Origin: Candidatus Nitrosotalea sp. TS
Lineage (GTDB): Archaea > Thermoproteota > Nitrososphaeria > Nitrososphaerales > Nitrosopumilaceae
Assembly (NCBI RefSeq): GCF_011319465.1
Contig: NZ_RCMB01000016.1
Span: 1-64,000, forward strand
Length of the DNA stretch: 64,000 bases
Reading direction: 5' to 3'
Shown piece by piece: positions 3,350-59,197 of this stretch. A program made the translations under genes and the position numbers. Position 1 is the stretch's first letter; the number at the start of each line of letters is the position of its first letter. The notes under the pieces were generated by a model. That model saw nothing but the letters and a program-made list of their open reading frames with translations. It was not told where the DNA came from and did no database searches.

Positions 3350-3536
3350 TCAGATAAAGCGGCATCATCATGTAGAAAAATCTTCTGTAACAAGATCCTA
3401 TAGCCAAAGCATATTTTTAGCATATACCGCATTACATTAAAATTATTTTAAATAAACAAAAATTTTCCAAAATTTTTAGTCGTCTGTTTGCAGCACTCAA
3501 GTCATTCTTAAGAATAAGAACAAGATATTTGAAGTG

Positions 3537-4771
3537 ATGGGGCGCCATATCTATGCCTATATCGGTGTAGCTGTAGCCCTAGGGCTCTTTCTTTTCTTCT
3601 ATTTCCAACAAGGTCAACCAACTGTAAACGTTGGCCAGCGATTCTACATAGCCCAAGTTCCCACAGGTTTGAACAATCTTACATTGTGCGATCTTCGGGG
3701 TACAACACCATTCATGGAGGGATTTTATCTGCAAGGAGCTCAGCCTGGTGCTTTGAAGACATGGAATTGGGGAGACGATACGCCGGCCGAGACAACCACT
3801 AGTATTGTAATGAACCACGATTATAGATTGAAGAATAATGATACCAGTCATAAGTTCAACGGAAACGTGACAGAATGGGATTATTACAATCCCACAAAGA
3901 TACGAGATAGGGAATATTTCACGGTCACGGTAAACAATACAAACCTAAAAGCAAACTATGATCAGTTTGAGGGAGTAATAATTCAAGACGATTATGCTGG
4001 CTTTTCTGTTTCTTCCTCAACTCCATATGCGTGGTATACGTGGTATTGGGACAAGACCAATCCCTCCGACTATGACTATACTAGTCTAGACAACTCCAAT
4101 CCAGGTCACAGGTACTCAAACATTGGGAAATTCCACGGTTATGTTGATATCACATCTCCTTCCCTAAATGAAGAGAAAGATTTTTGCGTAATGGTAATCT
4201 CAAACATGAAGAACATAACTGGCCAGATAAATGTAACCGATCCATTGTTTTCCACATACCCATCAATGGGCCTTCCAAAAGATAATCTGTCATTTATGGC
4301 AATCTTAGTTCCAGCGCCCGGCATACAAATTACTTCAGTTCCAGAATATTCATGGAATTTTGGTGACAAGAGTCCAGTATCACATTTGGCGGTATCCACC
4401 CACATGTATGATAAGAATGGAACCTATTTGGTGAAAGTCAATGTAACTGACTCGAGAGGATATCTTACCATGTCAAAGACTGTAGTAATAATAAAACCAA
4501 CTTTGAGCATATTTCCTACCCACGGCCCCATTGGAACAAATATTACTATCAATGGGTCCCAGTTTCCGGACGGAAATTATACTGGCAAAATAGGAAGCAG
4601 TTTGCTATTGGTGAACAATCCCACTTTTACTGTGACGGTAAAAAATGGCACCTTTTCCATAAATTATCCAATTCCATCCGGAATTCTAAGCGGCTTGAAA
4701 AACATCTATGTCCAATATCCACATTCACAAAGACCCTAGCTAGTGCGACCTTTAATGTAACACGCTCCTAA
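3537..4771 (+). CDS. Secreted or membrane-anchored protein with PKD-like and IPT-like domains
   Basis: An N-terminal hydrophobic helix (about residues 6-22, YIGVAVALGLFLFF) anchors or exports a roughly 400-residue extracellular beta protein. PKD-type signatures are present twice: WNWGDDTPAETT near residue 80 and YSWNFGDKSPVSH near 285, each followed by a YxVKVNVTDSRG-like strand. The end (IFPTHGPIGTNITINGSQF) resembles an IPT/TIG sandwich. Many N-x-S/T sites suit AglB glycosylation. A GTG directly precedes the chosen ATG. The frame closes at 4739 in QRP, but a shift near 4725 gives TLASATFNVTRS ending at 4771, a better last strand, so a one-base indel is likely. Probably a surface adhesion or structural protein. 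Confidence 0.65.
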
Positions 4772-4875
4772 CAATTTCCCAATATAGAATTCGTACAAGA
4801 ATTGCAAACATGTTATAGGTTTGTAGATTCAAATCAATATGCAGAACTAAGTCAGCTCACAGTACTGGCAATCAT

Positions 4876-6606
4876 TTAGGGGTACAGTTTATCAAAGTTG
4901 CTTTGGCGCACTAGTCCCATCTCCTCTGCCAATTTGACTGCCTTTTGCGCCTCGACTAGTTTTGCCTCCTCCTCCCCTGATACATCTTGTCTGTTAAGTT
5001 GCGTAGTGGTAAAGAGGAAGTAGTTGTGGTCTGTTACTGTTGGCTGCATCTGAGCCTTGGTGAGGTTGCACACTAGTGTTCCAAGCAGATTTCCTGACTT
5101 GTCTGATTCTACCATTGAAAGCTTGTCGACCCCCTTGTCGTAAACCCAGTTTATGTCAATTGATGTGTAGATGTCATGCATGGTATGCATCTTGTTGAGT
5201 AAGAGCGGAACGTCATATCCATCTCTTTGTAGCAAATTTTCAAGTGTTACGTAATCACCATACTGGTCTGTTGGAATCTTTTTCACATACACTGGGGAGT
5301 TTGGGTCAACAATCACTATCGCACCCCAAATTGGTACGTCGCCCATTGCAAGCTTTTCGTCCCACATTCTCATTATCAGGCTAGAATCAGGCATGGTCTT
5401 TTGCGGAATCATCATAAAGTTGGCATGCATAAATTTGCCATTTAGTGTAGTGTTCACAGACGTGCTGCTAAAGATTTTGTTAGGGTCATGAGTTATTGTA
5501 CCCCTGTACTTGTCCCAGCTTATCCAAGTGTCAGCATTTGCAGCAGATGGGTCTCCCTTGAAGTGAAAGTACATCACCACATCCGATATGGTATATGCAC
5601 CCCTCTCGTCAAGTATCTTAAAGCCAAAGTTTGCAGAAGTGCCAATCTTTAGCACCTGCTGCGGAATTGTAGTAGAATAGTTCTCAATGTCAAACGATTT
5701 TCCGTTAATTGTTATCCCGTTATCATATGGGTAAAGGTAGTCGTTGCCAATGCTTGGTGGGTGAAATACGCCTGTAAACAAGCTTCCACCCAAAACTCCC
5801 AGGAGTACAGTGCCTGGGCGTATGAGTCCACCTCCCCCTCCTCCCGGTATGCCGCCAGAGTTGAGAATTGTCTGTCCCTTGACTCCGTTGTATACTACAT
5901 CAACCTTGTCAAGATACTGCGAAGGCACTGCACCTAGCGCGGCATTTGGATTTGGAGTAGCAATCTCATTTGTAACATCTTGATTGCTAATGTCTGTTAT
6001 CGTAACAATGTCTCCCCCGTTTACACTAATTGAGCTACCATTGACTGATGGTCCAGTTGTAAAGTGCAATGTGTTCTCAAATATGCCAGTATTTTTTCCA
6101 GTCTCTGTAAGGTTCATGAAAGTACCAGTTACACTGTCGGTTGTGGAAAAGACCTGTATTCCGTAAAAGCTGACAGGTCCGCTTATGATGGTGTCCACAG
6201 CATTTGGATTTACATTTGCAGCTGGTTGGTTTACGCCAATTGTTTGCGAGCTTGAGGTACTAAACAATCCAGTTCCATTTGAAAAAATGACATGACCTGT
6301 GAAAGATCCAGTGGTACCGCTCTCGGTAAGTGTTAGTGTAATGCCTGTCGGATCTGAGGTAGAGTTTACAAGTACATTTATCTGCTGACCAGCTGGCAAG
6401 ACACCGACAAACCTAGAGTCAGTAACAGTGAACTGAGGGATTGCCGTAAATGTGTTAATTCCACCATCAAAGATGCTATGGCTTGCAGAGTCCCATGTGA
6501 CAGTTGTAACAGCATAGGCAGATGGAATTGAGAAAACCAAGACGCCAAAAAGCACGGCTGCCATAGCTACTCCCAATATCCTATAGACTCCCTCTAACCC
6601 CAACAT
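4876..6606 (-). CDS. Thaumarchaeal-type secreted surface protein
   Basis: A 576-residue exported protein with a signal peptide ending around residues 30-33 (hydrophobic run VAMAAVLFGVLVFS, then SAYA). The N-terminal 240 residues are Thr/Ser/Asn-rich beta structure with two related strands, LTESGTTGSFTGHVIF and LTETGKNTGIFENTLHF, which suggests two repeated sandwich domains. A run of six glycines near residue 255 links to a C-terminal half rich in aromatic residues that ends in a charged, probably helical tail (EEEAKLVEAQKAVKLAEEMG). No enzyme motif is visible. It is divergent from the metzincin protease at 6790 and they share a 180-base A/T-rich promoter region. Likely a cell-envelope component; function unknown. 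Confidence 0.7.
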   Translation of the reverse strand: MLGLEGVYRILGVAMAAVLFGVLVFSIPSAYAVTTVTWDSASHSIFDGGINTFTAIPQFTVTDSRFVGVLPAGQQINVLVNSTSDPTGITLTLTESGTTGSFTGHVIFSNGTGLFSTSSSQTIGVNQPAANVNPNAVDTIISGPVSFYGIQVFSTTDSVTGTFMNLTETGKNTGIFENTLHFTTGPSVNGSSISVNGGDIVTITDISNQDVTNEIATPNPNAALGAVPSQYLDKVDVVYNGVKGQTILNSGGIPGGGGGGLIRPGTVLLGVLGGSLFTGVFHPPSIGNDYLYPYDNGITINGKSFDIENYSTTIPQQVLKIGTSANFGFKILDERGAYTISDVVMYFHFKGDPSAANADTWISWDKYRGTITHDPNKIFSSTSVNTTLNGKFMHANFMMIPQKTMPDSSLIMRMWDEKLAMGDVPIWGAIVIVDPNSPVYVKKIPTDQYGDYVTLENLLQRDGYDVPLLLNKMHTMHDIYTSIDINWVYDKGVDKLSMVESDKSGNLLGTLVCNLTKAQMQPTVTDHNYFLFTTTQLNRQDVSGEEEAKLVEAQKAVKLAEEMGLVRQSNFDKLYP

Positions 6607-6789
6607 AGAATCTGCAATAAAGAACTATTTCTTCTTTATTTCTGTGGTTCTACAAGTTTTGAAAAATTTTCAAATTAAAATGATAATTGTGAAATCTTTT
6701 GAGAAAATAAACTCTCCACGGAAAAAATTTTAATCTATTCCAATCTCTCGCAGAAATGCTTAATAGAATTAAAACAAACCGAGATCGGA
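6607..6789. promoter_or_regulatory. Divergent promoter region of two exported proteins
   Basis: The 180 bases between two outward-facing exported-protein genes are strongly A/T-rich (for example 6650-6740), with several TATA-like strings such as TTTTAATC near 6729-6736. Both start codons lie at its edges. No inverted repeat stands out. Confidence 0.4.
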
Positions 6790-8685
6790 ATGACCGGGGT
6801 TGGGTTCAAGGCAATATTGGTTCTGGCATCTTTCACAGTCTTACTAGTATTCAACTCTGCATATGCTACTAACAATCCAGATAGTGTGCCAATTGGTGCC
6901 AACACATATGCAGCAACTCCAGTAAGTTTAGATCTAAATGATGGTGGCTGTGCAAATTATGGAGGAGACCCCGACAATGATGGCATCTGTGCACATTGGA
7001 AAGACGGAACTTATGGATCAGGTCTGCATGTAGTCTTCACTGATAGCTCAATCGGGGGTGTGCAGGTCCAGTACAGATACGATCTACCATGCACCCCAGG
7101 TGCCACTTTGCAAAGCGATCCATCAGGTTATACAGTGTGTCCATCCACTAACCAAAAAGACATTTATCTACAAATTGATTGCATGACTGGACAGTGTCCC
7201 CAACCACAAGCAATCTACGATGTTGTAAGTGCATTTGCCCAACAAGGTATAGTTCTTCATGTCGGCATGGGTCAGAATCCAGCAACTGTACCAACATCAG
7301 GCATTGCCGATATTGGGCTTCACTATTGCAACGTAAAAAATGTGGTTAAAAATTACGACTCGGCAAATGCCGCATGTACTAGCTCGTCTGGATATTATCA
7401 GAGTTATCCGTTTCTAAAACAAAATTTCTTTGGAACTGCTGCAGAGAGGTCAGGCAACACGTCCTACTGTCCACTCAATGGAGTTCCTCCTGGGTACAGT
7501 CCCTCTAATGCAAATGCGTTTAACTGCCTCACTGCAAAAAGACAGGTCTTCCATTATGCCATGTTTGTAAACTACCAGTGGGGAGCTCCCACATCATCTG
7601 GCTGGTCAGAGGTATATGGCAATGACTTTATCATATCTCTTGGCGGTTTTACAAATGGTGTTGGAAGTTTGGATGAGCAGGAAGGATCAATCATGCACGA
7701 GCTTGGCCACAACCTAGGCTTGAACCACGGCGGTTCTGACATAAATAATTACAAGCCCAACTATCTTAGTGTAATGAACTATCTATATCAATTCAAAGAG
7801 AACGCAGACTCTTGCAGGCCTCTTGACTATTCCAATACGGCTCTTGCAAACCTTAATGAAAATTCCCTTACAGATTCTAACATAGGAAGCTACGCGTATC
7901 CTTCAGGCTCCTCATGTGCAGGCCAACAACGCGCAATCTTCTGGTCTACGCCATCTGGTGGTATCATAAGCAGTACAACTGGAGTTACAGATGACTGGGA
8001 CAACAACGGCGTTGACACCAACACATACTCACAAATCCTGAACAATATAGGCACACAATACACGGGCTCGCCTACAACTCTTACTGGGTTTAATGACTGG
8101 AATTTCATCTTAAATGGCAATTCAAATAATCCTGAACCCATGGATTTCAGACCAAGCTCAAACTTTTACCAGACAGTGTTACCTGCAAGCAACCTTGACT
8201 CTGATGTCATCACACAGAATACACTCAATCACTCCGATATGCCACTTTTGCTAGCAGGTGTAATTCACCAAAATAATGTCAATACTGCGCCTAGTTCCCC
8301 AACAGGACTTGCAACCAATGTTGTTTCATCATCTCAGATAGATCTATCGTGGACCTCACCATCAAACAACAGCAACTCTCCAATTACAGGTTATGAAATA
8401 AAGAGGTCTACCGATAATGGCAATACATGGTCTACCATTCAAGCCAACACAGGCTCCACAGCAACCACATATTCTGATACTGGTCTTTCTTCTGGCACAC
8501 AGTACACATACCAAGTGTATGCAATAAATTCAGTTGGGACGGGTGCTTCCTCTAGCACAGCCTCCGGTACTACAAACAATAATCAGCAAGATCCAATGCA
8601 AGCCATAGGATGGGCTGCAGGGCTAGCAATAGCTGCCATAATGTCAGGCATAGGAATATGGATAGCAGTAAGACGCAGAAGCTAG
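6790..8685 (+). CDS. Secreted metzincin-type zinc metalloprotease with fibronectin III domain and C-terminal anchor
   Basis: A 631-residue exported protease. A signal peptide (about 1-26, ending SAYA) precedes a Cys-rich propeptide-like region. The zinc site HELGHNLGLNH at residues 303-313 fits HExxHxxGxxH, and SVMNY further on fits the metzincin Met-turn, so the active site looks complete. A fibronectin type III domain follows at about 505-595 (PSSPTGLATNV, then YQVYAINSVG). A transmembrane helix near 607-627 is followed by a basic tail (VRRRS), placing the enzyme on the outer face of the membrane. It precedes a giant subtilase gene by 25 bases, so the two proteases may be co-transcribed. 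The substrate is unknown. Confidence 0.85.
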   Translation: MTGVGFKAILVLASFTVLLVFNSAYATNNPDSVPIGANTYAATPVSLDLNDGGCANYGGDPDNDGICAHWKDGTYGSGLHVVFTDSSIGGVQVQYRYDLPCTPGATLQSDPSGYTVCPSTNQKDIYLQIDCMTGQCPQPQAIYDVVSAFAQQGIVLHVGMGQNPATVPTSGIADIGLHYCNVKNVVKNYDSANAACTSSSGYYQSYPFLKQNFFGTAAERSGNTSYCPLNGVPPGYSPSNANAFNCLTAKRQVFHYAMFVNYQWGAPTSSGWSEVYGNDFIISLGGFTNGVGSLDEQEGSIMHELGHNLGLNHGGSDINNYKPNYLSVMNYLYQFKENADSCRPLDYSNTALANLNENSLTDSNIGSYAYPSGSSCAGQQRAIFWSTPSGGIISSTTGVTDDWDNNGVDTNTYSQILNNIGTQYTGSPTTLTGFNDWNFILNGNSNNPEPMDFRPSSNFYQTVLPASNLDSDVITQNTLNHSDMPLLLAGVIHQNNVNTAPSSPTGLATNVVSSSQIDLSWTSPSNNSNSPITGYEIKRSTDNGNTWSTIQANTGSTATTYSDTGLSSGTQYTYQVYAINSVGTGASSSTASGTTNNNQQDPMQAIGWAAGLAIAAIMSGIGIWIAVRRRS

Positions 8686-8710
8686 AACGGATTTACCGGA
8701 AAAATCTAAA

Positions 8711-11700
8711 ATGAGATTTGTTGGAATATTTTTCCTCCTTGTGTTAACGATAGGAATAATTCCTACACAAAATTATTTTTCAGGACCACTTGTCACAGGG
8801 TTTTTACAGCAAGTTCATGCACTGGTCGCTTCAAATCCAAACTTGTTTGTCTCTGCAGAAAATTCACAGTACAACAATTACTTTGCAGGCCCCAAGTGGT
8901 CCAGGTAATAGTATCTGATCCTAACATAAACAGATTGGACCAACCCTATGGCGAGCCCGTAGTTACAGTTAATGGAAAGAAGTTGAGAATGGCACAGGCA
9001 ACAGACGGCAATTGGTACGGATATTTTGCCGACAGGAATCAAGCAATTACTGCAAGCAACACTGCACCTGTTCCTGCAAAAGGTCTGAACTTTGGAGCGT
9101 TCTGCAAAAGTGGCACGATTGGAGGTGTCGATTTTGGCTCGCAGACCAAAGGGTTTACTGTTGCAGAAAACGGATTTGACGGCGCCATAGGTCTATCTGT
9201 TACAGGTTCAAAGATCCCGATAGGTCCTCTTAGCAATACGTGTACCGGATTTGGCAATGGAATGGTTCTGGAACATGTAGTCAGAGAGAACAAGACTTTG
9301 AACACAAATTCCGCAGGCTATGGAGCATCTGCCAAACTAGAGTCAGCATGGCCAGTAATTCAGCTCTATGACTTTTCAGCAATCCCAACTGCAGTTACAG
9401 TAGATTACCAAGCAGCAGGTGGTGACCAAGTTGTCAATCTTACTTTTGACAAAATTCCATCAAATCTTATTTCCGTTGCTACAGACAAGCCAGCGTATAT
9501 TGCCAGCGCCCCTGTCTTGATGACAATAAATGATCCACAGCTTGGCATCGACCCAACCGAGGAAGACTCTTGGACATGGGGAGCAAATGCCAACAATAAT
9601 ACTCTCTTCTATGAAGCATTTGACAGAAACGGCAGGTCAGATGCAGACGGCTATTGCGTTACAACTGCCAAAACTCAGGTGGCGGTGGGAAACGGCCCCA
9701 CTGGCATTACATACGACTCGGCAAAGGGCGAGCTCTTTGTTACAAACTATTATTCAAGAACAGTCTCTGTAATTAGTGACGTAACAAATTCTGTGGTGGC
9801 AACAATTCCTGTAAAAAATGCTCCTCGCGGTATCGCATATGACTCGGCAAAGGGCGAGCTCTTTGTTACAAATGATGGCGGAGGAAACATCAGCGTGATT
9901 AGTGACGTAACAAATTCTGTGGTGGCAACAATTCCCGTAGGCAGTAACACTACAGCAATAACATATGACCAGTCTCTGGGCGAGATCTTTGTAGGAGATG
10001 ACGGACAGGATAAAATATCTGTAATCAATGACGCGTCAAACTCTGTTAACACAACGATTCCTCTAAGTGGCGGTACATGGGCAATGGCTTATGACTCTTT
10101 CAAGGAAGAGATCTTTGCCGTAAGCCAAGACAGTGGCGTCAAATCAGTGTCGATAGTATCTCCTGATACTGGGTCTATTAGATCTACCATTTCCCTAACC
10201 GACTATCCTTCAAGCATTGCTTATGACCCAGCAAGGGGCGAGGTATTTGTTGGGCTCTCGTATGCCAACTCAACTTCTGTAATAAGCGACTCGTCAGACT
10301 CTGTGATAGCCACTATACCAGTTGGCAATAGCCCCACTGGAGTCGTGTATGACCCGACAAGAAATGACATCTTTGTTACCAATTATTTTTCACAGACAGT
10401 CTCGGTAATCAACGACTTGTCTAACTCTGTGGTGGCAACAATTCCTGTAAGAGATGTTCTATCTGGCGCAGCATACGATTCGGCAAAGGACGAGATCTTT
10501 GCCATCAGTAATTCTGCCAAGACCTACATCTTGCCAGCAATCCCGGGCTGGACTTATATTCAGACAGCGTGCAGTTCAGGAACAGTTCCTGCGATGCAGA
10601 ATCTAATTGGTAATCTCACGTCCTTCATGTTTGACCACAACGGTAGGCTTACCATAGACCCCTCTCCAAATGGTACAAGGATTCTAGACTTTCAATCAAA
10701 TGGCAGACAGATCCTAAACGGATCATCTTTCACAAGAGGTGACCCAACAAAGCAAACAACTGCTTCAATTGGTCCTGGGTCCGAGCCAATAACTTTCATA
10801 GAGATGGGTGGAGTAAACACCGGCGTCTTTGGAAACTGGGACGGGAAGAAGAAACCAGATCTTGCAGTGACAAACAGTTTGAACATTAAAGGACTGCAAG
10901 CGACATTCAGCTATAACAACATCGCAGGAAGCATTGTTGCCCAGTGGGGCGGAGACACAGTTTTACTTAAGAGCACCGCGTTTGAACCAACACCAAACCC
11001 ATTTTCCATCATGAGTTTCCAGAATGGTCTCAAGGCTGGTCAAAAGTATCATTTTTTGATCCAGTTTAACAGTCCACCTACATCTTCAGATCAAGCAGAG
11101 CTTGCAAGTCAAGGAATCACGTTGCTCCAATATGTAAGCGGCAACACATTTGTCGCATCTGGCATCGCAAGTCCTTTTAGTATACTTTCCATACCACCAG
11201 ATGTAAGATGGACCGGGCAGTTCCTTTCGTCATATAAGATATCCCCAATCTTGGCTGCAAATGATACAAGCAAGATTCCGTCGTGGGCACTTGAGAATGC
11301 TCCTGGTACCAGTCTACCAAGCTATGCAGTGATAACAGCAGATCTTAACATAGATGCAAACATGACCAATGTAGCCCAGACCATAACAAGCTATGGCGGA
11401 ATGGTAGAGGCAGAGGTTCCCTTGGTTCCTTCGGTTACGGCAGTATTGCCTCTTACCAATCTGTATTCTACAATAACAAAGATTGCACAGATAGATGACG
11501 TACAATTCATTGATGTTGTAGAACCGCCCCTTGTGGCACAAAGTGACAATGGAACGATTACGGCAAATGCGGATTATGTAAACCAGAGAGGAGCCATCTA
11601 AAAATGGCGTAGGCTTGCTTGGCGATAATGTTACAGTCTTCGTCTATGATGGCGGAACAGTATTTCCCTATCATCCTGATTTTGGCAGTCGCCTCTGGGA

Positions 11701-14134
11701 CCAGACAGGATCATGCAATGAGGACCATGCTACAAACGTTGCAGGAATTCTTGGTGGAGATGGTAGCATGAGCAATAACTATCATGTGTGCTATGGAACG
11801 CAAGTATGTTGGACTGGTACTGAAAACCAGTGGTCCGGAATAGCCCCTCATGTAAACATAACATCCATCGGTTATGCAAAAGTTACAAATCCAGATATTT
11901 GTAATACTAACGGTGGTCCTCCCAGTGTAGATTATAACGATGACAAGCAATTTTCACAAGATTATAACATCATATCAACAAGACATATAGATCTTGCCAC
12001 AATGTCCATATCTTCAGCAGTTAGCGGAGCCTGTTGTCTTGGCCAATATACTCCCACCTCCATAGCTATTGACAATATTACTACTGGAGCAATTGCCAAT
12101 CAGAGTCTTACCATCTTTGAAGCTGTAGGCAATCGCGATCCTACTGAAAATTTTACGACCGTAGACCCCCCTGCCACTGCCAAGAACAGCATTTCGGTAG
12201 GAGAGATTTACTCAAAGGATTATAGTATATCTGACACCTCGGGATTTGGGCCAACTTCTGATGGACGTATCAAGCCAGACATTGTTGCCCCAGGTTGTTA
12301 TGGAGAAACTCCTAATGACTATCTAATCACAACTGGTGTTAACTTTAACTTAAACGAATCAAATTATGAAACTGCGCCCTGCGGAACAAGCTATGCAACG
12401 CCCCTGGCAGCTGGAATTGGGTCGTTGATGGTTGAAAAGTGGAATCAGCTACATCCGAACTCGCCTGGCCTATTACCAAGCACTGTCAAGGCCATTCTGG
12501 TTCACACTGCACTTGATCTTGGCAGTCCCGGTCCAAGCTACAAGTATGGTTGGGGAGCCATAAACGCAAAGTCCGCAGTTGAGCTTATCGACAGGAATGC
12601 ACTTCAAAGTTCAGGTCATCTGATAAACGTTGCAAATGTCAGTAGTGGCAAAGAGATCACGTTCAATTTTACCTCCAATACAACCGACGACGTAAAGGCA
12701 ACACTTGTCTGGGACGACCCGCCAGCTGCTCCCTTTGCAGCAAGCACACTTGTTAACCAATTGAATCTCACGTTAATAGATCCTAGCGGAAACCACATAG
12801 AACCTTATCTGCTAAACTCCTCGCAACCTAACAAGCCGGCTACTACAGGAAATGACACTGTAAACAACGTCAAGGTTGCAGTTGGCAACGGAATACCAGG
12901 CACATGGCAGGCCGTAGTAGACGGTTCGCGTGTCTTTCCTAACACCTCACAGTATTTTACCCTGATAATCTCAAATGCTGTGAAGCGAAGTATAAGCATG
13001 AGCTTAACGCCTCAGACCGTAACTGGTCAGAACCCAGTTACCATCAATGCAACAATATCGGATAATGATACTGGTACTTCCTTGCCAGTCTCTGGAAGTG
13101 TTACCTTTGGCGATGGAAATAGCGGAGGTTCATTTTCCACACCAAATTGTTACACACAAAATGGCAGCCTAGTATGCCTTGTAAACTATACCCCAAATAG
13201 CCAAGGCAACATTCCCATAACAGCAAACTACACGGGTGATCTCGTTCATGCCAAACTCATCATTCCTAACATATCAAATTCAAACAACAATACCAACCAA
13301 TCTTCAACTGCTTGCAAATCAAATTTAGCAACAGTCGAAATAATTCCTGTAAAAGCTCTCCAGTCTTTTACCAAGACCCCCAACCTAATAGCTAATTTCT
13401 TTGCAGGCAAATCAATCAAGGTAACAAACAACAGTACAAATTCACATCTTTCAAACTATGTTACTCTGCAGAATGTCCCAGACAAATATGCCGTAATCCA
13501 TTACAGTGTAACTGGCCAGAACGTGACTACCGTTGCATTTGAGGACAGATATGGAAGACCAGAGTCAAACAACAACCTTAACGCATTTTTGCAGATAAGC
13601 CACAAAAAAGATACAATAAGTTCAATGAGAGGAATAGAGCTTGGAGGCGACCAGATTTTAGTCGGACTTGCCAGCATGGGGCACAACACTACGCTTGCAA
13701 ATTCAGCCGAAATCAATATACCGTCTGGTAATGCAAGGGTTATGCAAAAATTCAGGGTTCCACTAAATGCCAGTGCAGACGTTGAACAGGTGCCAGAACC
13801 AGTCCGTAACTTTCTTAACGGGTCACTTGACCTTGAAAACTTGAAAACAGGAAATTATCTAACTCACTATTACTTTTTGCAAACGGTACCAGATAACTAT
13901 GCTCGTCTATGTAAAGGAATAATGAACCAGAATGTAACGACCATCGCATTTGAAGACGAGTATGGCTTGAATAGCAGCAACGGAAATCTAAATGTCTTTC
14001 TCCAGATAAGCCACGACAGTACAAAGGTAAACTCGCTCACAGCAGTGCAGCTTGGGGGTGATAATATTGAGGCATTTGTCAATGGCGTCGATGAAGGCAG
14101 CATTACAAAGTCAATTGAGATTCCAATGAAATGA
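8711..14134 (+). CDS. Giant secreted subtilisin-like protease with inserted YVTN beta-propeller, frame broken twice
   Basis: One gene of about 1,800 codons is read in three frames. The first segment holds a signal peptide and ends NNYFAGPK at 8908; dropping back one base near 8893 continues as QVVQVIVSDPNIN. The second segment has about seven beta-propeller repeats (variants of ITYDSAKGELFVTN and VVATIPV, 9680-10540). It ends at a TAA at 11599; skipping one base continues as KNGVGLLGDN, the start of the peptidase S8 domain. The triad is visible: Asp in VFVYDGG, His in NEDHATNVAG, Ser in CGTSYATP. Ig-like domains follow, then two similar domains ending LQISHKKDT and LQISHDSTK. The two shifts compensate in sign and look like sequencing indels. 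The enzyme is probably extracellular and N-glycosylated. Confidence 0.8.
9680..10540 (+). repeat. Tandem YVTN-type beta-propeller repeats within the subtilase
   Basis: About seven repeats of roughly 40 codons each carry variants of YDSAKGELFVTN followed by VSVISDVTNSVVATIPV. The first two copies are nearly identical at DNA level (the string starting actcggcaaagggcgag occurs at about 9715 and 9841), suggesting recent duplication. The number of blades fits one closed propeller. Confidence 0.75.
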
Positions 14135-55543: not shown

Positions 55544-55702
55544 ATGAAATTCCTAATGCGCAAGTGCACCAACTGCAAAAGATATACACTAAAAGACGAG
55601 TGCCCCAAGTGCGGAAGCAACACGGCAAGCGTTCATCCAGGAAAATATTCTCCTGATGACAAGTACGCAAGATACAGAATATCTGACAGATACAAGAATT
55701 AG
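55544..55702 (+). CDS. nop10: H/ACA RNP protein Nop10
   Basis: A 52-residue protein with a zinc ribbon (MRKCTNCKRYTL and CPKCG at about residues 6-24) and the conserved tail HPGKYSPDDKYARYRI. Nop10 binds the pseudouridine synthase Cbf5 in H/ACA guide RNPs. It follows aIF2 alpha after two bases. Its TAG overlaps the TAA of the convergent AglB gene. Confidence 0.92.
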   Translation: MKFLMRKCTNCKRYTLKDECPKCGSNTASVHPGKYSPDDKYARYRISDRYKN

Positions 55703-58488
55703 CCTGTACTGTTAGTTAAAATCTTAATTGTTGTTACTCTAGCGTCGTCTGCATTGACTGGCTGGCTGTTAGAGTCTGTCGGCAGTGCTGCAATTTTGTC
55801 CACTACATCTTGTCCTGAAATTACCTGTCCAAATAGTGTATACTTGCCATTTAGGAAACTTGCATCTCCCACTGTAATGAAAAATTGCGAGCTTCCGCTG
55901 TTGACATCCTGGCCGCGTGCCATGCCAACCGTATATGTAGTAAAGTTCAGGTCACTGAACTCTGGAGGTATTGTATATCCAGCATCTCCCATTCCCCAAG
56001 TATCTCGCGAGCCGTTTATGGAATTGTGATCTCCTCCCTGTATGACAAATCCAGGAACTATTCTATGGAATACAGTTTGGTCATAGAAACCAGACTTGGC
56101 CAGTTTCTCAAAGTTTGCAACTGTCTTGGGGGCTACATTGTTGAAGAGTCTTAGTGTAATGTCTCCGTATTTTGTGGTAATTACTGCAGTGTCACCAGTT
56201 GTTGTAGACGAGCTGTTTGTTGTGGTAACCTTTGGTACAGGTGGAACTTGCGCCAGCGTATTGTTTGCCTGTGACTGGGTGCTGTTTGCCTGCTGTTGCT
56301 GGTAGGCAGCTTGTGAGTAGTCTGCATTGACTTGGTAAATCAAGACACCAGAGAAGACGCCAGAGTCAGTTCTGTTAAGGCTTGATGATTGGTATACGAG
56401 TTTTAGCGGACCGTTTCCATTTTCAGGGTACTTGATATTTTTAGCATAAATTGCAGTAAATCCAGACTGATATGTCTGAGACTCTGAATGGGTAGTTGGA
56501 TCATAGTATGTTACTGTAGTAAACGGAAACATGTGTCCAAGCAATGTATTTTGCCAGAAATAGTCAGTTGGTGTAAACTCGTCTGACTGGAGGAACTGCG
56601 TCTCGTCCTCTCCTGCAATCTTGATGAACCACTGTTTTTTGCTTTCATCTCCACCGCCGCCAAGAACATAGAGCTCTTGTCCGTTTGAGACAAATTTTTG
56701 CCCAACCACATACACAACAACATAGTCTGCGTGCATGTCTCGAAGCATCTTCCAGGCATCATCAGGTGAAGCCAAAAACATTTTTGCAATACCTGCTATC
56801 TTGTTTGTATCCACCGTAGCGTTATCAACAAAGGTAGTTCTGTGTCCTAAAGTTTGTATCCAGTAACCATAATCCCACCACGAAGCTATGACTGAGTTTG
56901 GCGGGGTGTTAGTCTTGAGCCAATTCAATGCATCAGGCCAGTCAGTTGTAGCAATTGCAAAATTAGAACCACCGTTAAGTATTGTCGGAGGCGCTTTCAC
57001 CATCGATATCCAGTTTGCGTCAACAGGAAACATTGTTGGCACAAGCAACAGGGCCACAACTACAACTACAAAGGCAATCTTTGGAATTGGGCCCATGTAG
57101 ATGAGGCTCTTTTTTGTCAGAACCTTCTTTTTCGAGTCTTTTGATTCTGTTACTGCAGGTTTGTTTTCCTTTTTAAGTATCTCAGATGTCATGGCAGCAA
57201 GTCCAACTGACGCCAGTACAATGACAGAGCTTGCAGTCAATAATTCTAATCTGGAAAATGTTGAGCCGGCATATGCACCCACTATTCCTAAAATGAGTGC
57301 AAAGATAATCATCTCATTTTTAATATTAAATGGTAAAGAGTTGCTGCCTTCACTTTTCTTTCTAAAGGTAAGCCATATTCCAAAGCCTGCAAACAACATC
57401 AGGATTGAAAAGTAGGTAAAGTTTTGTGCAAGAGTTGGAGTAGCATGCTCTGCAACAGAGTCCACCAATGGATCTTCGGATGTCAGGAATGGATCCACTG
57501 CATTGAGATAACGGAAACTTGCTGAGTGAAGTGCACCTGATGCAAAGATTGCACCGCCAATTACAATACATGCTGCAAGAACCAACAAGCTGTTACGCAA
57601 CTTGACCTGGTCCTTGCTAAATTTCTGAACAAAAATTATTACGACCATCAGTATGGTAGATCCGATTAGAACAAAGCCTCGCTCTCCAAATACAAATGTG
57701 GGGCCAGGTCTTGCAAACACGCCGCCAGATACTGCCATTGTTATTGCCACAAAAAACGGAATTGCCCACAACAAGAAGTTGTGATCTTTTCTCACAAATG
57801 GTAGTGCAATCACGAAAATTCCCAGAGGTATCAAGAAGAATTCTACTCCTCCCCATGAGGCAAAACCAATGCTCAAGAATCCTGCACCTCCAAAGAGTTT
57901 GGCAATTGCAATTTTTCGGTTTTGAGTCCTTATTCCACTAAGAAACAGGTATACGCCCAATAGCCCATAAAAGAGGCCAAGCGGTTCTGATTTGAACCAT
58001 CCTATTGTTCCCCTAACTATGATTGGCGGAGAGATTGCAAAGAAAAGCGATGCAAAAAGGCCAGATGTTGTGCCTCCAATTACTCTTACAAGTGCAAATA
58101 CTATGACAGTTGTCAGGGAACCAAATACTACAGGAAATATTATTGTGAAATCATAAAGACTCATTCCACCGCCAAAGATTTTGTACAGTATGGCATCGGT
58201 GAAGTGAAGCGGCACCTGTGCATTGGTAAAGACATCTCGGCCTTCTGGATACCAACTCAGGGTGTCATGCCAGTGAACATATGCATCAACGCCGTGATTT
58301 AGCAGGTATTCTGTTGCCCTGAAATTAAAGTATGGATCAAACTCGTTTAGCTGAAAACCATAGTCTGCTGCCTGTGATCGTACCATGGCCGAGATTGAAA
58401 ACGAAGCTGCAAGTATTCCAATCACAAGCAAGTGTCGCAAATTAAAAGCACGGTTTCCTACCGTGAACAGCTTTCTATCCTGAATCAA
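55699..58488 (-). CDS. aglB: AglB/STT3 oligosaccharyltransferase fused to a cyclophilin
   Basis: A 929-residue membrane enzyme. The first 490 residues hold about 13 helices with the catalytic LNEFDPYFNFRAT loop near residue 47 and GTIGWFKSEP; the extracytoplasmic domain has SWWDYGYWIQTLGHRTTF near residue 537, the STT3 WWDYG acceptor motif. After a Gln/Asn/Thr-rich linker (about 725-765) comes a complete cyclophilin-type peptidyl-prolyl isomerase (about 765-925): FHRIVPGFVIQGGD, SSQFFITVGD and LNGKYTLFGQV. The enzyme transfers lipid-linked glycans to N-x-S/T sites outside the cell; the fused isomerase could fold the products. The frame is intact and the fusion lies in a single uninterrupted ORF. 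Confidence 0.93.
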   Translation of the reverse strand: MIQDRKLFTVGNRAFNLRHLLVIGILAASFSISAMVRSQAADYGFQLNEFDPYFNFRATEYLLNHGVDAYVHWHDTLSWYPEGRDVFTNAQVPLHFTDAILYKIFGGGMSLYDFTIIFPVVFGSLTTVIVFALVRVIGGTTSGLFASLFFAISPPIIVRGTIGWFKSEPLGLFYGLLGVYLFLSGIRTQNRKIAIAKLFGGAGFLSIGFASWGGVEFFLIPLGIFVIALPFVRKDHNFLLWAIPFFVAITMAVSGGVFARPGPTFVFGERGFVLIGSTILMVVIIFVQKFSKDQVKLRNSLLVLAACIVIGGAIFASGALHSASFRYLNAVDPFLTSEDPLVDSVAEHATPTLAQNFTYFSILMLFAGFGIWLTFRKKSEGSNSLPFNIKNEMIIFALILGIVGAYAGSTFSRLELLTASSVIVLASVGLAAMTSEILKKENKPAVTESKDSKKKVLTKKSLIYMGPIPKIAFVVVVVALLLVPTMFPVDANWISMVKAPPTILNGGSNFAIATTDWPDALNWLKTNTPPNSVIASWWDYGYWIQTLGHRTTFVDNATVDTNKIAGIAKMFLASPDDAWKMLRDMHADYVVVYVVGQKFVSNGQELYVLGGGGDESKKQWFIKIAGEDETQFLQSDEFTPTDYFWQNTLLGHMFPFTTVTYYDPTTHSESQTYQSGFTAIYAKNIKYPENGNGPLKLVYQSSSLNRTDSGVFSGVLIYQVNADYSQAAYQQQQANSTQSQANNTLAQVPPVPKVTTTNSSSTTTGDTAVITTKYGDITLRLFNNVAPKTVANFEKLAKSGFYDQTVFHRIVPGFVIQGGDHNSINGSRDTWGMGDAGYTIPPEFSDLNFTTYTVGMARGQDVNSGSSQFFITVGDASFLNGKYTLFGQVISGQDVVDKIAALPTDSNSQPVNADDARVTTIKILTNSTG

Positions 58489-58537: not shown

Positions 58538-59197
58538 CTAAGGTTCTTTTGTTAGTATGTGTACTTCGCAGGACGTTACCGCGTTTTTGAATTCCTGAGC
58601 ATCCTGCGGGCTTCCTACAATGGCACCATAGTGCATTGGTATTGCAATCTTTGGCTTTATCGCATCTACAGCTCTTGCAGCTTCGCGCGGACCCATGACA
58701 TATGTTCCGCTCACCGGGACCAGCAACACATCTGGTTGCAAATTACTCATCTCTGGTACCAAATCAGAATCTCCAGTGTGGTATATGGTGGTGCCATGAA
58801 TATTAATTAAAAATCCAATCTTGCCGTCTTCTTTTGGATGGAATGGCTTTTTCGTATCGGGATTAATCTTGTCTATATTGTATGCCGCAATTCCCTTTAT
58901 CTTTATTCCATGTATGGCTTTTTCTTCTCCTGGGGCAAGGGTTATCTTTTCCTTGAATGGAATACCAGCCAACTTGCTGATGCATTCTTTTGCAGCAACA
59001 ATTGTTGTCCTGCTAGATGAGACTTTGCCCAAGTCTTCTACACTCATGTGATCAAAGTGCTCATGAGAGACAAGTACCAAGTTTGCCTCAAGCGGTTTTG
59101 AAATCCTGTACGGATCTATTATTATCTTGAAATCTTTTTCAATCAAAAAGGCATCATGGCCAAGCCACGTTATTTTGACGCCCTTGTACTCTAGCAT
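58538..59197 (-). CDS. UPF0173-type metallo-beta-lactamase-fold hydrolase
   Basis: A 219-residue protein. Start KITWLGHDAFLI and the metal site VSHEHFDHMSVEDL (H-x-H-x-D-H) are typical; IIYHTGDSDLVPEM and IPMHYGAI supply the later metal ligands. This family (also called metal-dependent hydrolase UPF0173) is widespread in archaea with unknown substrate. It lies 50 bases beyond the aglB start and downstream of the PIN gene on the same strand. Confidence 0.87.
   Translation of the reverse strand: MLEYKGVKITWLGHDAFLIEKDFKIIIDPYRISKPLEANLVLVSHEHFDHMSVEDLGKVSSSRTTIVAAKECISKLAGIPFKEKITLAPGEEKAIHGIKIKGIAAYNIDKINPDTKKPFHPKEDGKIGFLINIHGTTIYHTGDSDLVPEMSNLQPDVLLVPVSGTYVMGPREAARAVDAIKPKIAIPMHYGAIVGSPQDAQEFKNAVTSCEVHILTKEP

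Follow-up and report, generated by a model that had tools for sequence, protein, structure and literature searches.

An archaeal AglB/STT3 oligosaccharyltransferase carrying a C-terminal cyclophilin domain in Candidatus Nitrosotalea sp. TS and its relatives

We analysed a 64,000-nucleotide stretch of the genome of Candidatus Nitrosotalea sp. TS (contig NZ_RCMB01000016.1 of assembly GCF_011319465.1, positions 1 to 64,000; hereafter, the window) and focused on one gene, at 55699-58488 on the minus strand. An initial annotation, made from the sequence, had described it as a single intact open reading frame with an STT3/AglB oligosaccharyltransferase body, a linker and a full cyclophilin domain. 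This description held up: from a TTG start the gene runs as a single open frame of 929 aa with Pfam matches to both enzymes, and the WWDYG and cyclophilin motifs quoted in that annotation are found in the translation. The linker is marked by a low predicted local distance difference test (pLDDT) score and by a raised ratio of nonsynonymous to synonymous substitution rates (dN/dS). The parts of the gene are as follows.

56326..58488, minus strand: AglB/STT3 oligosaccharyltransferase part, with membrane helices and outer catalytic domain (residues 1-721; boundary from the profile match)
57985-57993, minus strand: second acidic motif position of AglB, reading KSE (residues 166-168)
56866..56880, minus strand: WWDYG motif (residues 537-541)
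56191..56325, minus strand: flexible linker of 45 aa with N-X-S/T sequons at N735, N742 and N758 (residues 722-766; low pLDDT and raised dN/dS)
55714..56190, minus strand: cyclophilin peptidyl-prolyl isomerase domain (residues 767-925; from the Pro_isomerase match, fold and catalytic positions)

Pfam placed STT3 (PF02516) at residues 46-327 (E 2.3e-24), STT3-PglB_core across the WWDYG motif (E 2.4e-05) and Pro_isomerase at residues 769-913 (E 1.3e-45). In NCBIfam, the archaeal STT3 model, PpiA and PpiB gave sub-threshold matches, and no model for an STT3 and cyclophilin combination was listed for the protein. The nearest solved sequences to the AglB part were human STT3A (E 1.4e-49) and STT3B (E 1.9e-42) by sequence search, and a family profile of this part matched human STT3A at E 7.2e-88. 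Its own genome, at 71% completeness, shows no other STT3 match; besides the fused protein it has one further cyclophilin, a 160-aa protein without an N-terminal extension.

Two genes may be joined artificially by an assembly chimera or a missed stop, and the initial annotation had considered a chimeric junction. Here and below, counts by genus and family come from the genome matches listed, whose lists are incomplete at their ends. All nine genomes of the window's genus, its own included, carry the fusion, with the query aligned from residue 1 to at least residue 925 in one frame without stops; two of the nine (G087 and G361) are single-contig genomes. Full-length copies in independent genomes of the genus exclude an assembly chimera. 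We also collected 74 distinct fused sequences, and both domains are under similar purifying selection (see below). In one relative, L046, the reading frame changes within the cyclophilin; nothing in the window itself speaks for an artefact. We therefore ruled out both a chimera and a frame error for this gene and give an artefactual origin next to no credence.

Motifs of the oligosaccharyltransferase were counted in 134 AglB rows, 71 fused and 63 unfused. WWDYG was invariant (134/134 rows, and 18/18 aligned fused proteins). EFDP, the first acidic motif, was found in 70 of the 71 fused rows, the exception being a row without that end. SVAE, an SVSE-type motif, was present in the five commonest fused forms, which make up 62 of the 71 rows. 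The second acidic motif (DXD/DXE type) serves as a metal ligand. Human STT3A reads DNE at this position, whereas all 71 fused rows read KSE, as do 62 of 63 unfused rows (one reads KAE); because KSE is common to both, it is not tied to the fusion. Fused and unfused AglBs alike thus have Lys where Asp is expected near the metal. Overall, the protein resembles AglB/STT3 in its approximately 13 long helices and in EFDP, SVAE and WWDYG, and differs from it in the added C-terminal linker and cyclophilin and, relative to human STT3A, in KSE.

Cyclophilin positions were compared in the 74 distinct fused copies, a few of which are contig-cut on the AglB side, and are named by their human CypA equivalents, R55, F60, Q63, M100, A101, Q111, F113, W121 and H126. 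The equivalents of R55, F60, Q63, M100, A101 and Q111 were invariant (74/74). The F113 equivalent was Phe in 72 copies and Tyr in two, that of H126 was Tyr in all 74, and that of W121 varied. The domain is like PpiA/PpiB-type cyclophilins in being whole, in fold and in catalytic residues; it differs in the Tyr at H126, the variable W121 and its tether to AglB. Judged by these residues, a catalytically intact cyclophilin is supported. Across 11 close pairs, some with dS > 1, dN/dS ranged from 0.036 to 0.209 in the cyclophilin, from 0.036 to 0.130 in AglB and from 0.118 to 0.939 in the linker. The similarly low values in the two enzymatic domains indicate that the cyclophilin is kept under purifying selection about as strong as that on AglB, with the linker drifting.

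The same residues bear on the idea that AglB is itself the target of the cyclophilin, or that the domain is a docking module that recruits other factors, its catalysis being secondary, as has been argued for FKBP11 of the mammalian OST-A (oligosaccharyltransferase A) translocon. According to PMC12804085, FKBP11, together with CCDC134, places a member of a peptidyl-prolyl isomerase (PPIase) family near STT3A on the lumenal side, and CCDC134 buries what is nominally its active site. It belongs to another isomerase family, is held non-covalently and is described there as a ribosome-binding adaptor, whereas the archaeal protein carries a covalent cyclophilin; the resemblance is one of arrangement only. 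A docking surface alone would not need active-site residues, yet six such positions do not vary across the 74 copies, and the persistence of related AglBs without a cyclophilin argues against an AglB-directed role. We therefore consider docking or action on AglB unlikely.

To place the domain relative to the membrane, we used an AlphaFold2 model built from an alignment of 18 fused homologues (mean pLDDT 72.7, predicted template modelling score 0.60). Its helix list, read by eye, showed 13 long helices, all lying within residues 17-486, with no membrane-type helices beyond them. By hydropathy, the last hydrophobic segment was 460-494, with none C-terminal of 494. Foldseek matched the model to STT3 chains of oligosaccharyltransferase and translocon structures (one STT3A chain at E 6.2e-22), to Archaeoglobus fulgidus AglB and to many cyclophilins, the cyclophilin-fold matches reaching TMt 0.87. 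The C-terminal domain of oligosaccharyltransferases faces outside. Given this topology and the lack of a membrane segment after 494, the cyclophilin should lie outside the membrane, probably on the same side as the WWDYG core. Predicted topology thus agrees with the outward-facing cyclophilin proposed initially, and on this predicted topology only we rejected a cytoplasmic one.

The linker had been described as Gln/Asn-rich. The linker is real, and its Gln/Asn richness proved to be a trait of this copy only; across the 74 copies, linkers are Thr/Ser/Asn/Pro-rich and 17-102 residues long (median 38). At least one sequon occurs in 50 of the 74 linkers, with 165 sequons in total versus 108 expected from shuffles. 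The cyclophilin plus tail of 26 thinned copies had 46 forward versus 32 reversed sequons, and 18 cytosolic-type cyclophilins had 14 versus 10. The excess is modest and not clearly specific to fused copies, and sequon enrichment as proof of export was dropped as too modest.

We next consider how widely the fusion occurs. From tree positions, we read family f8 as Nitrososphaeraceae and family f1, which includes the window, as the Nitrosotalea-Nitrosopumilus group. The 63 f1 genomes comprised 19 with the fusion, 41 with AglB without cyclophilin (one, G406, contig-cut) and three nearly complete f1/g7 genomes (G435, G445 and G469) whose best match to the fused protein was of only cyclophilin strength. 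In f8, 22 of 23 genomes were fused, seven of them read from DNA since their matches were split; in the exception, G113, AglB is split between two frames and has a tail of 85 aa that contains no cyclophilin. Both f3 genomes (2/2) and the f2/g37 genome (1/1) were fused. Among the matches listed for six f2/g10 genomes (G001, G018, G030, G039, G055 and G062), there was neither an STT3 match nor a whole-fused-protein match (0/6 each). Five of these six are at least 91% complete, and the sole searched genome of another f2 genus has the fused form; f2/g10 genomes may be without N-glycosylation of this type. Among the matches listed in the phylum search, the cyclophilin frames outside the order were 198-602 aa long; AglB frames listed for f9, f10 and other deep families were 790-956 aa. 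Twelve deeper-branching AglBs on the tree stop no more than 7 residues from the end of the AglB profile match.

Named loci gave a similar division. The best 80 of at least 449 loci found, an uneven sample in which some share a genome (L042 with L087; L064 with L067), comprised 36 fused, 40 unfused (L046 included) and 4 cut. Two partial copies of the window (L001 and L003) were left out of the counts. By title, the fusion was present in Nitrosotalea (5/5), Nitrosotenuis (2/2), Nitrosocosmicus (2/2), Nitrososphaera (3/4) and Nitrososphaeraceae (6/7). Unfused loci were all 12 uncut Nitrosopumilus, two each of Nitrosarchaeum, Cenarchaeum and Nitrosopelagicus, six of Marine Group I and one Nitrosopolaris. 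These groups are ammonia oxidisers. Loci titled Chitinophagaceae bacterium (L066), "bacterium" (L082) and SAR202 (L096) carry AglBs that fall inside the archaeal tree; these loci are probably mis-binned contigs.

A quick-method tree of the 134 AglB rows (identical AglB domains merged; rows with < 560 profile positions excluded) placed all 71 fused rows inside one 122-row clade on a long branch, with a Shimodaira-Hasegawa-like approximate likelihood ratio test (SH-aLRT) support of 100. Every main branch of this clade holds fused rows: f2/g37 with f3 (3/3), the f8 side, and f1. In the change analysis, L064, contig-cut by the named-locus rule used for the distribution count of loci, was entered as unfused. 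A second count, leaving out L089, L083 and L101 (contig-cut), L086 (which stops short although its contig continues) and the frame-changed L046, gave a minimum of five changes. Change counts alone cannot separate gain from loss; we prefer one gain and about four losses because the rows outside the clade are without cyclophilin. A single origin that predates the diversification of ammonia-oxidising archaea is thus most likely, followed by losses in what are best read as Nitrosopumilus-type and a few soil lineages. Two unfused soil loci, Nitrosopolaris wilkensis L077 and Nitrososphaera sp. AFS L112, retain a linker-like tail of 85-91 residues followed by a stop, and L102, also unfused, ends directly after the AglB part; these endings look like cyclophilin loss. 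The 46 unfused Nitrosopumilus-side rows are split on the free tree, with a single clade not rejected (p 0.085); these rows may reflect one loss or several. Soil versus sea as a cause of fusion or loss was set aside as confounded with phylogeny.

The cyclophilin tree was rebuilt without an outgroup, a tree with a distant outgroup having rooted inside one fused group. The fused domains formed three groups (f1; f8; f2 with f3), unjoined on the best tree. An approximately unbiased (AU) test, which left out L208, one duplicate row and six distant cyclophilins, did not reject a single clade (p 0.25), with five carriers nested in f8. Several independent fusions are thus not settled by the cyclophilin tree.

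Gene neighbours were compared in the best 80 loci, where the flank was present. Upstream of AglB, 21 of the 36 fused loci and 18 of the 40 unfused ones had eIF2-gamma, and 18 and 13 had S6e; downstream, 19 and 16 had eIF2-alpha, and 17 and 13 had CobO. The like neighbours indicate that fused and unfused AglBs are the same gene, not replacements. In the window, one further gene lies immediately upstream.

58538..59197, minus strand: UPF0173-type metal-dependent hydrolase gene, 49 bases upstream of the fused gene on the same strand

This hydrolase is upstream in 26 of 36 fused versus 4 of 40 unfused named loci, some of which have short flanks. It is perhaps co-transcribed with the fused gene, and its bias toward fused loci may reflect phylogeny or short flanks only.

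We also examined other prolyl isomerases of these genomes. In f1, a class of approximately 515-aa proteins has a signal-like N-terminus, a cyclophilin and C-terminal hydrophobic segments, as judged by eye from ten proteins, six of which come from unfused genomes. Members with a C-terminal CLIATA-type segment (L201-L207, L209 and L219) are widespread in f1. By hand count, a second cyclophilin match in a 419-923-aa frame, taken as a sign of this class, was listed for 42 of 44 f1 genomes without fused AglB, for 9 of 10 fused f1 genomes outside the window's genus, and for none of nine within it. Among the matches listed, an unfused AglB in f1 thus seems to be accompanied by another exported-type cyclophilin in 42 of 44 genomes. 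With 0/9 second matches, genomes of the window's genus seem to have no exported-type cyclophilin other than the fused domain. In f8, four g16 genomes have 453-485-aa frames (L142, L145, L150 and L210) whose C-terminal cyclophilin is nested among the fused f8 domains, as is that of the helix-anchored protein L148, which suggests that the cyclophilin was copied out of the fusion onto other carriers. Four deep-lineage loci (L133, L139, L143 and L144) carry a cyclophilin on an N-terminal helix and linker, a possible form of the fusion's ancestor; on the tree, these group with cytosolic f1 cyclophilins and not with the fused ones. Genera with and without the fusion both have parvulins (59 of 71 family genomes), and compensation by parvulin for cyclophilin loss is therefore not supported.

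These proteins also show that cyclophilins are tethered in other ways: on an N-terminal helix in the deep lineages, by C-terminal hydrophobic segments in the 515-aa class, and seemingly by copying onto other carriers in the f8/g16 genomes and one other f8 genome. NmPin of Nitrosopumilus maritimus, according to PMC4922055, is likewise a prolyl isomerase on the outer membrane surface with the S-layer as suggested substrate, although it is a free parvulin attached by a lysine patch. AglB might accordingly be no more than an anchor that keeps an exported foldase at the membrane surface, where the cyclophilin would serve the S-layer in general and have no functional link to glycosylation. However, the partner is an oligosaccharyltransferase, with the pairing kept across f1, f2/g37, f3 and f8, and no separate cyclophilin frame was seen on another multi-spanning enzyme, although no search was aimed at such. 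The anchor-only explanation remains a serious one, which we rate as possible and do not favour.

Our favoured reading, to which we lean with limited confidence, is an oligosaccharyltransferase that carries its own extracytoplasmic foldase on the same chain, in which glycosylation and isomerisation act on the same emerging chain. A chain would exit the Sec channel unfolded, AglB would glycosylate its N-X-S/T sites, and the tethered cyclophilin would isomerise X-Pro bonds of the same chain. The chain might thereby stay soluble and fold faster after glycosylation, or else stay open long enough to be glycosylated. The chief substrates would be S-layer and exported redox proteins, and in the window's family the fusion would have been lost only where a second exported-type cyclophilin is also seen. 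This coupling of glycosylation and folding is inferred from architecture. A more far-reaching version is that the cyclophilin decides which sites are glycosylated and how S-layer proteins and exported copper enzymes fold, as an inherited one-chain holoenzyme whose marine loss altered, perhaps weakened, N-glycosylation; we regard this version as doubtful though possible.

Several observations weigh against a coupled enzyme. Many relatives keep AglB without a cyclophilin, and AglB therefore does not depend on the pairing; both activities are predictions. The structural model yields no usable relative orientation of AglB and cyclophilin: linker residues 735-764 have pLDDT < 50, and the placement of the domains relative to each other is therefore not fixed. 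The sequon excess in the linker is modest (32 forward versus 20 reversed in the 26 thinned copies), and the fused cyclophilins do not fall on one side of a branch. In addition, the authors of PMC12804085 argue that FKBP11, adjacent to the mammalian oligosaccharyltransferase, does not work as a nascent-chain isomerase.

The initial annotation had also argued for coupling from surface proteins "just upstream". PKD, fn3, beta-propeller-like and subtilase proteins, Asn- and Thr-rich, do occur in the window, at 3534-14134; this is approximately 3.5-14.1 kb, > 41 kb from the fused gene. Seven window proteins were taken as surface-like by domain, N-terminus or composition; forward sequons exceed reversed ones in five and equal them in one, and the fn3 protein has 3 forward versus 12 reversed. 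Given this distance and the mixed sequon counts, these proteins lend the proposed coupling little weight.

Oligosaccharyltransferases with an attached foldase-type activity are known from yeast (Ost3/Ost6) and human (TUSC3/MAGT1). These share with the archaeal protein a foldase at the oligosaccharyltransferase, and differ in that theirs is a thioredoxin-fold oxidoreductase on a separate subunit. Searches of open-access titles and abstract openings yielded no description of an STT3-cyclophilin fusion. In two further sources, "STT3", "glycos" and "fus" were absent from an archaeal PPIase survey (PMC8530231) and "isomerase" from a paper on STT3 evolution (PMC4973528). The architecture may already be on record as a database annotation.

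A 2025 glycoproteome (PMC12153357) lends some support to the favoured reading. In Nitrososphaera viennensis, the proteome included AglB (NVIE_RS12080), and N-glycans were carried by the S-layer protein and by two multicopper oxidases; in Nitrosopumilus piranensis, there was little AglB and no definite N-glycoprotein, with low AglB abundance offered by the authors as a possible cause. The words "cyclophilin" and "isomerase" are absent from the main text. NVIE_RS12080 would be fused, judged by its group, in which fusion is the rule, rather than by its own sequence. The contrast in N-glycoproteins would thus parallel the line between fused and unfused lineages, in two species only.

How sugar addition is timed before folding hides the sites is an open question, and here both catalysts share one chain. 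Close relatives without the cyclophilin are ready-made controls, and the group includes cultured members. On the more far-reaching version, the holoenzyme would match, in archaea and by a covalent link, the isomerase-family protein at the mammalian oligosaccharyltransferase translocon. The fusion also bears on the cell surface of abundant soil and marine archaea.

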